Source: Selenomonas sputigena ATCC 35185 | GTDB taxonomy: Bacteria; Bacillota; Negativicutes; Selenomonadales; Selenomonadaceae | NCBI RefSeq assembly: GCF_000208405.1 | Contig: NC_015437.1 | Coordinates: 2,225,501 to 2,289,500, forward strand | Reading direction: 5' to 3' | Length of the DNA stretch: 64,000 nucleotides | Part shown: positions 13,459-36,353 of the stretch, in pieces | How the letters are laid out: every line of letters starts with the position of its first letter | Position numbering within the stretch: position 1 is the first letter of the stretch | Position numbers and translations under genes: made by a program | Notes under the pieces: model-generated | Databases searched by the model: none | Seen by the model: only the letters and a program-made list of their open reading frames with translations | Told to the model about the DNA's origin: nothing

Positions 13459-14547
13459 GTGGAAGCGAATCGCATTTACAATTTCAATCCCGGCCCTGCC
13501 GCTCTGCCGCTTGAGGTGCTCAAGGAAGCGCAGGCGGAGTTTCTCAATTTCGACAACTCGGGCATGTCGATCCTGGAGGTTTCGCACCGCGCCAAGGCGT
13601 ATGACGAGGTGCACAACCAGGCGAAGGCGGACATCCTCTCGCTCATGGGACTCGGCGACGACTACGACGCGCTCTTCGTGCAGGGCGGCGCAAGCCTCGC
13701 TTTCGCCATGATTGCGATGAACTATGCGACGAAGGAGAAGAAGGGCAGCTATGTGCTGTCGGGCAGCTTCGCGACGAAGGCTTACGAAGAGGCCGCACTC
13801 CTCGGCGTCGGTGAGATCGCGGCTTCCTCGAAGGACGGCGGCTTCCGCCATGTGCCGACGCAGGAAGAAATCAAACTCGATCCGAATGCAGCGTATCTTC
13901 ATCTGTGTTACAACAACACGATCTACGGCACGGAGTATCACTACATTCCCGAGACGGGCGAAGTTCCGCTCTTTGCCGACATGTCGTCCGACATGCTCTC
14001 GCGTCCCCTCGACTTCAAGAAATTCAGCTTCATCTACGCAGGTGTGCAGAAGAACCTCGGCCCCGCCGGAACCTGCCTCGTCGTCGCGAAGAAGTCGCTG
14101 CTCGAAAAGAGCCCCGAGACGCTCCCCACAATGCTTCGCTACTCGACGCACTACAAGAAGAACTCCCTCTACAACACGCCGCCCGCTTTCGGCATCTACA
14201 TGGTCGGCAAGGTCGCCGCATGGATCAAGGCGCAGGGCGGTCTCGCCGAAATGGCGAAGCGCAACGAGAAGAAGGCTGCGCTGCTCTACGATGCAATCGA
14301 CAGCTCCGACGGCTTCTACAAGGGACATGCGGACAAGGACAGCCGCTCCTTCATGAACGTCACCTTCCGCCTGCCGAGCGAGGAGCTTGAGAAGAAGTTC
14401 GTCGCCGAAGCCGCAGAATACGGACTTGGCGGCGTCAAGGGACACCGCTCCGTCGGCGGCATGAGAGCGTCGATCTACAACGCGATGCCCTACGAAGGCG
14501 TCGCCGCTCTCGTCGACTTCATGCAGAAATTCCGCAAGGAAAACTAA
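13459..14547 (+). CDS. serC: Phosphoserine aminotransferase
   Basis: 362 aa starting at GTG 13459, eight bases after AGGAG. It is a PLP-dependent aminotransferase converting 3-phosphohydroxypyruvate plus glutamate to phosphoserine. It begins with the family-typical YNFNPGPAALP, has LFVQGGAS for phosphate/PLP binding, and the PLP lysine in IYAGVQKNLGPAG; GHRSVGGMRAS lies near the end. It is divergent from serA, so the first two serine-pathway steps sit side by side. No serB is seen here. Confidence 0.95.
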   Translation: MEANRIYNFNPGPAALPLEVLKEAQAEFLNFDNSGMSILEVSHRAKAYDEVHNQAKADILSLMGLGDDYDALFVQGGASLAFAMIAMNYATKEKKGSYVLSGSFATKAYEEAALLGVGEIAASSKDGGFRHVPTQEEIKLDPNAAYLHLCYNNTIYGTEYHYIPETGEVPLFADMSSDMLSRPLDFKKFSFIYAGVQKNLGPAGTCLVVAKKSLLEKSPETLPTMLRYSTHYKKNSLYNTPPAFGIYMVGKVAAWIKAQGGLAEMAKRNEKKAALLYDAIDSSDGFYKGHADKDSRSFMNVTFRLPSEELEKKFVAEAAEYGLGGVKGHRSVGGMRASIYNAMPYEGVAALVDFMQKFRKEN

Positions 14548-14557
14548 AGGAAACACG

Positions 14558-34099: not shown

Positions 34100-34756
34100 A
34101 TGCCATCATACAAATACATCCTGCTCGCTCTCATCTTCCTATCCCTCGTGCTGCTCTACCGCTGGCTTCCCAACCGAAAGATCTGGGCACTCTTCTCCCT
34201 CACGCTCCTCTTCGCAGGAGCAGCGGCGTTCTGGAGCTTCCCGCCGCCGCCCGCGTCCAAGATGACGGAAGAAGAACGCAGCGAGATTCATCAGCAGCAG
34301 GAAATCTTCACCGCCTGGTACGACGAGCACAAGAAGAACATCACACAGCTCGACTACAACTGGCAGCAGTACCACAACATCCTTGAGAGCTTCAAAGAAG
34401 GCGCGATCGACATCCAGACGGCCTACGTGCGTCTCACGCAGCTCGCCGAAGACGCCAAGCACACGCGTGACGCCGTCGACGCGCACATCCCGCCGCTCGC
34501 GCTCAGCGGCATCAACTACGACCTCTGCGCCGCCGTGCGGCAGAAGACGCTCGCCTACGCCGAAGCGCAGCAGCAGGTGATCAGCCGCACGAAGAACGCC
34601 GCCGACCCCGCGCAGCTCCTCACGCGCGACGTCGCCGAGCAGAGCCGCATCCTGGAGGACACGATGATCCGCGAATCGCCGCCCGGCCTCTTCCTCGCCG
34701 AAGAAATCAGCGCACTGCGCGAAAATCTCACGATTCCGCCGGAAAAGGACGAATGA
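34100..34756 (+). CDS. Bitopic or two-TM membrane protein of unknown function
   Basis: 218 aa. Two hydrophobic segments (about residues 6-22 and 28-46) precede a mostly helical, charged domain, probably extracytoplasmic, rich in Gln/Glu and coiled-coil-like between about 60 and 115. No family recognised. It has its own promoter and is followed by the long inverted repeat, so it appears monocistronic. Codon usage matches the GC-rich neighbours. Confidence 0.7.
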   Translation: MPSYKYILLALIFLSLVLLYRWLPNRKIWALFSLTLLFAGAAAFWSFPPPPASKMTEEERSEIHQQQEIFTAWYDEHKKNITQLDYNWQQYHNILESFKEGAIDIQTAYVRLTQLAEDAKHTRDAVDAHIPPLALSGINYDLCAAVRQKTLAYAEAQQQVISRTKNAADPAQLLTRDVAEQSRILEDTMIRESPPGLFLAEEISALRENLTIPPEKDE

Positions 34757-34761
34757 CGAAT

Positions 34762-34940
34762 CGTGCTGCACCGTCCATAAGCGAAGCCTTTTTGGAGCGA
34801 GCGTCAAAAAGCCCGCCCATTCCCCCTTCGACCAAGATTCTCGTTCAAGCGAAGCGCGTTTGAATCTTGGTCGTTCTTTAGGGGAATGGGCGGGCTTTAG
34901 CTCGCGGAAATATTGCCTTCGCATTGGGCGGTGCAGCACG
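34762..34940. repeat. 179-bp imperfect inverted repeat
   Basis: Two arms of roughly 85 bp face each other across a short centre. Outer matches are CGTGCTGCACCG / CGGTGCAGCACG, middle matches are AAAGCCCGCCCATTCCCC and its complement, inner matches are CGACCAAGATTC and its complement. It lies between convergent genes. It could be a MITE-like insertion or an oversized bidirectional terminator. Confidence 0.85.
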
Positions 34941-34973
34941 CGTGCCTCTTATGTTGGTTCTTGGCTCTACGAT

Positions 34974-36353
34974 TCAGCCATTTCTCGCCGCTGCGACGCG
35001 TGCGCGGTACAGACTGCGCAGCCTATGCCAGAGCATCGGCACGACGAGCATCGGCACGCCCATGTAGAAGGCCTGCCGCAGGTCGGGCGTGAAGGCGAGC
35101 ACGACGAGGCAGAAGACCTGCGCCCAGATGCCGAAGAGCGTCACATAAGGAAAGAACGGCGTCTTGTAGCGCAGGGTATGCTCCAGCCCCTCGGCGATGA
35201 GGCGGCGGCGGAAGCGATACTGACTCCAGCAGATCGAAATCCACGCGATCGCCCCCGTGCAGCCCGATACAGCGAGAAGATACGTATAGACCGCCGAATC
35301 GGGATTGAACGTGTAGAGCAGGATGACGAGCCAGCACGCCGAAACCGACATGAGAATGGAATTGCGCGGCACGCCCTTGCTGTTGATCTGGGCGAGAAAT
35401 GCCGGCGCCATGTCCATGCGAGCGAGCGAATAGAGCGCCCGCGCACTCGAATAAAGACCCGAGTTCGAGCACGACACGGCGGCCGTCAGAACGACGAAGG
35501 CGAGCGCGGCCGCCAAGGAGTCGAGGCCGTGCGCGGCGAGCGCCGCCGCAAAGACGCTTTCGGAGATGCTCGCCTCTTCCCACGGCAGAATGGAGATCAG
35601 AAGGGAGATCGGGACGATGTAGAGCGCGATGATGCGCCACGTCACGTTGCGCACGGCGATGGGGATGCTCTTCTCCGGCTCTTTGCACTCGCCCGCCGCA
35701 AGGCCGATGATCTCCGTGCCTTGGAAATTCACGAGGATGATGACCATCGTCAGGACGATCGCCCACCAGCCGTTCGGCGTGAAGCCGCCGCTCGAAAGGA
35801 GGATGCGCGTGCCGATGAATCCCTCTCCGCCGAAAAGCCCGAGACAGATGAGCGCCGCCACGACGCTGAAAGCAACCAAGGCCAGGATCTTCACAAGGGA
35901 CAGCCAGAACTCGCTCTCGCCGAACTTGTCGACGCGAAAGAGGTTCAGCACGGTCACGACGAGGCCGAAGAACACGGCCCACCACAGCTGGCTGACTTCG
36001 GGCACAAAATTGTTCATGATGATGCCCGCGGCGATCATCTCGGACGGCACATACGCCATCCAGTTGAGCCAGTACGCCCAGCCCACGCCGCACGCCCACG
36101 TCGAAGAGATGTTCTCGCGCGCATAGGCGACAAAAGAACCCGAAACAGGCTTGGCGACCGCCAGCTCCGCCAAGGAGAGCATGACGCAGAGCACGATGAC
36201 TCCGCCCAAAAGATACGCCAGGATCGCCGCCGGCCCTGCCTTTTCCAGCACATACCCCGTGCCGAGAAAATAGCCGCTGCCAATGACCCCGCCGAGCGAA
36301 ATCATCTGCACATGCCTGTTCTTCAACCCTCTGTTCATCTGCGTCCCATTCAT
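34974..36353 (-). CDS. APC-superfamily amino-acid permease
   Basis: 459 aa with about 12 membrane segments. The start (MISLGGVIGSGYFLGTG) is the conserved first helix of amino-acid/polyamine/organocation transporters, and VNFQGTEIIGLAAGE in the middle is the AAT-family consensus. It is close to the aromatic/neutral amino-acid permeases of Firmicutes, but specificity cannot be read. ATGs at codons 1 and 6 are both possible starts. It is monocistronic, from the promoter at 36434-36462. Confidence 0.88.
   Translation of the reverse strand: MNGTQMNRGLKNRHVQMISLGGVIGSGYFLGTGYVLEKAGPAAILAYLLGGVIVLCVMLSLAELAVAKPVSGSFVAYARENISSTWACGVGWAYWLNWMAYVPSEMIAAGIIMNNFVPEVSQLWWAVFFGLVVTVLNLFRVDKFGESEFWLSLVKILALVAFSVVAALICLGLFGGEGFIGTRILLSSGGFTPNGWWAIVLTMVIILVNFQGTEIIGLAAGECKEPEKSIPIAVRNVTWRIIALYIVPISLLISILPWEEASISESVFAAALAAHGLDSLAAALAFVVLTAAVSCSNSGLYSSARALYSLARMDMAPAFLAQINSKGVPRNSILMSVSACWLVILLYTFNPDSAVYTYLLAVSGCTGAIAWISICWSQYRFRRRLIAEGLEHTLRYKTPFFPYVTLFGIWAQVFCLVVLAFTPDLRQAFYMGVPMLVVPMLWHRLRSLYRARVAAARNG

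Follow-up and report, generated by a model that had tools for sequence, protein, structure and literature searches.

A near-palindrome of 179 bases lies between two convergent genes of Selenomonas sputigena ATCC 35185, at positions 34762-34940 of the 64,000-nucleotide stretch of contig NC_015437.1 that we analyzed as a whole (hereafter, the window). Its size raises the question of whether it is a transcription terminator, a structured RNA or a piece of mobile DNA. The first-pass annotation had offered a MITE-like insertion or one long hairpin; both descriptions hold in outline and they are not alternatives, and the window copy itself has neither terminal repeat nor target duplication. In our assessment, the hairpin is probably one copy of a non-autonomous, MITE-like family of mobile DNA that is conserved in fold rather than in sequence.

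The window hairpin and its neighbors

Pairing of the two arms extends over the whole element, as had been annotated, and its F strand (the + strand of the window, to which all positions of the hairpin refer) is predicted to fold as one long hairpin. When positions 34740-34960 were folded as RNA, the minimum free energy was -114.1 kcal/mol, compared to -72.9 kcal/mol (sd 5.0) for 200 dinucleotide shuffles, none of which matched it (z -8.2). The fold consists of stems of 16, 6+1, 6, 18 and 10 bp and a 7-bp apical stem. The outer 16-bp stem joins 34762-34777 to 34925-34940 and varies from copy to copy; the terminal CGTGCTGCACC, which had been proposed as a shared transposon end, is therefore not common to the copies. 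Further inward, 34797-34802 pairs with 34900-34905 (6 bp), 34808-34825 with 34881-34898 (18 bp) and 34829-34838 with 34864-34873 (10 bp). The conserved apical loop, GTTCAAGCGAAGCGCGTTT, occupies 34843-34861 and encloses a GCGAAGC motif at 34849-34855. Another GCGAAGC, at 34781-34787 in the 5' arm, is paired in the predicted fold with 34915 and 34917-34922 of the other arm.

Upstream of the element is a 218-aa ORF with no assigned function (34100-34756, + strand), matching only DUF4131, below the curated cut-off, and downstream is the convergent gene of an amino-acid permease (34974-36353, - strand; PF00324, E 5.6e-101). Comparison of 34691-34770 with 34931-35010 gave no target duplication around the window copy, in line with the earlier reading: the longest words common to both flanks were two 7-mers, and the left copy of both lies inside the upstream gene. 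An Rfam 15 scan of the window returned no family at the gathering score, the 179 bases had no match in the plasmid and phage records searched, and the exact loop pattern did not occur in the viral contigs searched.

Presence and absence at matching sites

The window's genome (G000) was compared with a second genome of its genus (G001), the only other one examined; G and L numbers here designate genomes and loci. G001 has 56 bases, among them an ordinary terminator hairpin of 23 bp, in the place of the 217 bases at 34755-34971, between flanks that are 95 and 97% identical. Because its nearest relative has no element at the same place, the behavior of the window element is that of small mobile DNA and not of a fixed terminator. 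At this site a clean insertion cannot be claimed, since the entire intergenic stretch differs from that of G001. The window's genome has a second copy (contig 2207932-2208063) with an inner part 93% alike and a different outer stem, and its counterpart in G001 is a 20-bp hairpin. Conversely, a copy in G001 lies between a gene for a small Cys-rich peptide and a radical-SAM gene (named by eye), where G000 has a terminator. Single-copy status and conservation in place had been named in advance as signs of a terminator or regulatory structure; instead, the element has a second copy in its own genome and many in relatives, and an ordinary terminator takes its place in the sister genome.

At three of three sites compared in the window's genus, then, one genome has the element and the other an ordinary terminator hairpin. 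This could also mean that the element is an enlarged transcription terminator or 3'-end RNA structure, of which the related species retains a shorter hairpin. Consistent with that explanation, the R strand of the window copy presents a GC-rich stem followed by TTTTT, usable for the permease gene, and one comparison found that, at the L063 site, the element's place is taken in L179 by a terminator-like hairpin. However, among 12 perfect hairpins in 100 kb of G001, five remain hairpins in G000; one (27763) is aligned in G000 without being retained as a perfect hairpin, and the other six comprise two opposite an element, one in a G001-only insert and three outside the aligned part. Given the five that are kept in both genomes, we rejected random swapping of long perfect terminators between G000 and G001. 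Separately, G001 is longer by about 770 bases at window 14546-14557, and this additional stretch contains its own perfect hairpin of 20 bp.

In genus g9, comparison of flanks shows that some loci have gained about 205 to 232 bases net where relatives have about 8 to 13 bases (L186/L218, L085/L180 and L179/L063). Further observations argue against an enlarged terminator. Some elements sit next to an intact terminator (L186, L217), and the pair L179/L063 is also cited as an empty site free of any hairpin. Elements occur at sites of every gene orientation, divergent ones included: by longest-ORF gene calls, 27 of 30 loci in G117 gave (--) 9, (++) 8, (-+) 5 and (+-) 5, with no marked preference, and 113 other loci gave (+-) 33, (++) 29, (--) 28 and (-+) 23. 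By the same gene calls, the family as a whole does not keep the fixed place downstream of genes that characterizes intrinsic terminators. In addition, the loop is common to host groups though the arms differ. Taken together, we regard an enlarged terminator as improbable.

The radical-SAM site was followed in 12 genomes. Three of them (G001, G117 and G071) hold three different elements; G000, G018, G135 and G127 have none, with only a terminator in G135 and G127; and G084 and G139 have other hairpins that lack the loop. The sequences of G122, G053 and G112 at this site are read as decayed remnants. The proposal that the outer stem is a target palindrome split by insertion was discarded, since the empty site L063 lacks such a palindrome and the terminators of G001 differ in sequence. 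Like MITEs, the elements occur as multiple dispersed copies that are present or absent between relatives.

Copies, covariation and ends of the family

A search with the element as DNA query matched six of 41 genomes, several by the apical loop alone. Loci matched in this way still fold into hairpins as long as that of the window with different arms, which identifies the loop as the conserved part. Allowing up to one mismatch, the loop pattern was found in 37 of 151 genomes of the host family, with 0 to 61 matches per genome within a single genus. Five of the 37 had a single match only, and lone matches prove nothing because the reversed-pattern control gave one match each in 8 of the 151 genomes and none elsewhere. 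Scanning of genome contigs for the loop, with N fixed as A and chance coding matches included, so that the resulting collection of loci is biased, returned at least 120 stretches. Among the matches listed, 70 were titled Selenomonas, Mitsuokella, Centipeda or other Selenomonadaceae/Veillonellaceae (hand count); the other 50 were chiefly Lachnospiraceae, Eubacterium and other clostridial assemblies with a few Bacteroidales, and those outside the family included scattered titles resembling chance coding matches. Of 143 distinct cores among the matches listed, 114 were enclosed by 45 or more pairs in their folds, and the other 29 by fewer. Loop-bearing loci sit mostly on equally long hairpins with unlike arms, including those of clostridial and Bacteroidales assemblies. 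Twelve genomes holding such loci (one of them Mitsuokella) had 1 to 33 loop matches against none in any control, and the genome of Eubacterium sp. AF22-9 had 13; outside the host family, these counts come from genomes picked for having a match, most records are metagenome bins, and mis-binning is possible.

Several variant arrangements were seen. L070 and L156, from clostridial assemblies, have the identical loop sequence within another surrounding fold. Pairs of oppositely oriented hairpins, whose cores are separated by about 270-420 bases, occur at L056, L059, L068, L075, L082, L083, L086, L093 and L104, that is, in several Selenomonas and one Eubacteriales assembly. In Selenomonas infelix (L058, 6169-6336), a repeat of ~165 bases with TTAA at each end lies within the inner stem, and similar repeats of ~170 bases adjoin other loci; in L180 and L201 of G117, the 5' arm is interrupted by similar nested inserts of roughly 115 bases, each of which includes a hairpin. 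At 2351399 in the window's genome (L226, about 970-1045), a 35-base arm-like stretch adjoins a short hairpin that resembles a terminator; this may be an element in the course of being reduced to a terminator.

Fifty elements of genus g9, picked by motif, were aligned over 148 columns (alignment A1). Their consensus fold has 39 pairs, and 98.4% of cells are paired compared to 88.9% after shuffling. Pairs changed on both sides numbered 17 against 11.2 in shuffled alignments, and double-sided cells 227 against 74.6; because the copies share descent, such shuffle counts, like the sign counts for the motifs below, are not independent trials. The covariation score was 0.334, compared to 0.153 for shuffles, which keep relatedness, and 0.018 to 0.082 for slid structures, a control that flatters the consensus since it was taken from the same rows. 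Further pair types scarcely exceeded the shuffled number (43 vs 40.2, reached in 17 of 500 shuffles).

The covariance model built from these 50 elements (R1), none of which comes from the window's genus, matched the window copy over its full length (model positions 1-145 of 145 at window 34780-34927, + strand) with 77.7 bits and an E value of 1.2e-20. Run against 32 other element loci, R1 matched 30 at E up to 1, and for 21, some of them clostridial, the match covered the full length with E below 1e-6; the strong hairpins L074 and L101 gave no match at E up to 1. Seven of eight chance-match loci had no match, one had a 21-base match at 14 bits, and none was matched in full. Covariance-model searching found two copies in the window's genome, one in G001 and none in G106 or G009.

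Such strong covariation of the arms would also be expected of a structured RNA, mobile or conserved, that is transcribed from the F strand as a ribozyme-like molecule or a small RNA. The predicted hairpin is obtained by RNA folding at the z score given above, the short motifs described below are confined mostly to one strand, and GT-type mismatches slightly exceed AC-type ones among isolated arm mismatches (119 vs 92, p 0.07; 91 of 178 elements, those with strong arms). Against this, 355 of the 566 isolated mismatches in the arms belong to neither type, orientation relative to genes is not fixed, and the window has no Rfam match. We judge a structured RNA to be about as improbable as an enlarged terminator. 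The arms show no strong GT-over-AC bias, and so slight a strand preference counts against the MITE-like reading. Orthologous pairs of elements (L204/L077 and L184/L096) show uncompensated changes, as judged by eye, which fits selection on spreading and not on each resident copy.

The flanks of 171 elements were compared for direct repeats. Direct 8-mers flanked 29 of them, whereas 40 shuffles gave 13.8 on average and 24 at most; several of these 8-mers are self-complementary or within simple sequence. Flanking 7-mers were found for 67 (47 shuffled, maximum 62), and flanking 9-mers, in the same 171 elements, showed no excess beyond chance (9 vs 4.6, shuffled maximum 11). Three of the 8-mer-flanked elements, L137, L143 and L186, have identical ends, and elements of a Selenomonas/Centipeda subgroup carry inverted repeats of ~20 bp at their ends, accompanied by target duplications of 8 bp. 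The end pattern of this subgroup was matched 23 times in G117 (control 5), 45 times in G127 (control 4) and 16 times in G053 (control 7); in the window's genome it showed no excess (5 matches, control 3). Sixteen elements bounded by these ends had, at a fixed position outside them, exact 8-base duplications in 3 cases, at least 7 of 8 bases in 7 and at least 6 of 8 in 11, and mismatched pairs gave 0, 0.45 and 2%, respectively. Without L143 and L186, from which the end pattern was derived, the numbers were 1, 5 and 9 (n=14). Of these 16 elements, three measure 74-126 bases, and these short ones have no loop.

Relatives with resolved ends therefore carry the target-site duplication of a MITE. 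The window copy has no recognizable terminal repeat and no duplication, and because it fails these two tests we withhold formal MITE membership from it. Ends vary between host groups, just as outer stems vary between copies: the copies of rumen-type Selenomonas, often inverted pairs, have ends unlike those of the subgroup, and some clostridial palindromes extend to about 190 bases each side. Common ends were rejected for the rumen type: its copies share a AATTRCAGTTTG end with no clear duplication, and some of the flank that they have in common resembles repeated context.

Palindromic structure, intergenic location, strand polarity and the paired inverted copies of some Selenomonas would suit a REP/REPIN-type element moved by a Y1 (RAYT or IS200/IS605) transposase, and the window's genome has six Y1_Tnp matches (G001 has none). 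Y1_Tnp matches, however, were found in 10 of 23 element-rich genomes compared to 13 of 23 element-free ones, and in none of G117, with its 57 loop matches, and the element-rich G139, G135, G095 and G114, which rules out a Y1 transposase as a requirement. Y1 enzymes are not known to make 8-bp duplications, and one subgroup has them. A REP/REPIN origin is accordingly very unlikely.

ISL3 likewise does not track the element (12 of 23 element-rich vs 7 of 23 element-free genomes). One end of an ISL3-family copy in G139 resembles the subgroup end at 17 of 22 positions; this was the best of 13 loci and two end versions, was equalled in 1 of 200 shuffles of that locus and is not significant after 26 comparisons, and the other end of that copy was not found. 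ISL3 as the parental enzyme is thus only a weak lead. For the subgroup with resolved ends, the best lead is a DDE transposase that makes 8-bp duplications, perhaps ISL3-like. No parental transposase with the same ends, as the first-pass annotation had envisaged, was identified, and terminal repeats with 8-bp duplications were seen only in a subgroup of another genus.

Motifs on the F strand and a proposed mechanism

The apical loop holds GCGNAGC, which agrees with the sequence pattern of GNA mini-hairpins, in which GC pairs close G-N-A and N is free. In 195 distinct cores, the closing letters covaried (G-C in 175, A-T in 11, C-G in 1, G-T in 5 and A-C in 3), and N could be any base, being A in 167, C in 18, T in 9 and G in 1; the patterns used for collection favored N = A and largely restricted the closing letters to purine and pyrimidine. 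The 57 cores of G117, gathered by a pattern that accepted A, C or T at N and tolerated two mismatches, had A in 39, C in 12, T in 5 and G in 1 (hand count).

Related motifs in the arms, taken as 100 bases on each side of the loop, are strongly biased to one strand. GYGNAGY occurred 216 times on F and 18 times on R, and 139 of 190 elements were richer on F compared to 2 richer on R; the strict GCGNAGC gave 61 against 1. The broader RYGNAGY gave 254 and 49 in the arms, and 120 and 95 in flanks 500-700 bases away. Much of the GYGNAGY signal is a GTGRAGC motif of g9 elements that is partly paired in the predicted fold; leaving out the 68 g9-type elements, the remaining 122 still gave 114 vs 14 for GYGNAGY and 57 vs 1 for GCGNAGC. 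In predicted folds several motifs, among them the 5'-arm GCGAAGC of the window copy, pair with the other arm, and a DNA folding program paired the apical loop otherwise than in the GNA fold, at an ordinary energy (z -0.83). The weight that we give to both the MITE-like and the fold-recognition readings is tempered a little, because some of the GNA motifs counted are paired in predicted folds and the program selects another fold.

The ERIC, Correia, RUP and YPAL families are defined by conserved sequence. In the present family, by contrast, arm sequence is free across host groups, the fold and short loops persist, and the motif bias is one-stranded. Integron attC sites are recognized as single strands by their fold, with arms free to vary, a resemblance in principle only. 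A paper on intrastrand triplex repeats could bear on such hairpins as well. No description of the present family was found in the open-access literature searched.

In general form, the family resembles ERIC/IRU/RU-1, Correia/NEMIS, RUP and YPAL, which are non-autonomous, multicopy elements of about 100-200 bp with a long stem-loop; most of these MITE-like intergenic palindromic repeats carry terminal repeats and target duplications (PMC2229807). With REP/REPIN sequences it shares extragenic palindromes, opposite-orientation pairs and, for some families, the absence of a dedicated transposase. REPs are defined by a GTAG or CGTC tag next to a palindrome of 20-40 bases (PMC3733652 for both points), whereas the present elements measure ~180-230 bases, have no Y1 association and, in one subgroup, have 8-bp duplications. 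GNA mini-hairpins and phage N4 hairpins are alike in having a closing pair, fixed loop G and A and a free middle base (PMC4686876 and PMC4496689). GNA loops closed by GC pairs form DNA mini-hairpins of very high stability, whichever base stands at N (PMC4686876). Phage N4 promoters need the closing pair and the loop G and A for extrusion, their strands differ, and their hairpins extrude at physiological supercoiling (PMC4496689). Such hairpins are short, and those of N4 serve a phage polymerase as promoters; in the present family the motif is part of a much larger hairpin and is known as a sequence pattern.

The simplest account would be a small parasite of another element's transposase, whose copies spread, insert between genes and decay. 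Conservation would then act on the F-strand fold, a large hairpin built of several segments, in which bulges recur along with short motifs of the GNA type (GCGNAGC and variants), and the arms would drift with complementarity kept in the lineages still spreading. Arms may covary and loops stay because, over long times, only lineages that fold would keep spreading. The F strand may fold as DNA, either in a cruciform or as single strand at replication, and this fold might be the feature recognized by a mobility enzyme or host factor. Copies would settle between genes, where they may be able to stand in for a terminator; the position of the element opposite the sister's terminator at three of three sites might reflect deletion on insertion, a preference for terminators or recombinational replacement. 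A bolder proposal, which we put forward tentatively and consider rather unlikely, is a new kind of mobile element with the folded DNA strand as its identity, in which one enzyme, or several unrelated ones, would read a large single-strand hairpin by its GNA-type nodes and bulges instead of by sequence.

If that proposal is true, arms and even transposon ends would be exchangeable while the fold persists across phyla. A repeat family kept by fold and not by sequence would evade ordinary repeat finders. Its elements occupy places where a sister genome carries a terminator, and through the family one could test whether DNA secondary structure is the selected feature of mobile DNA.
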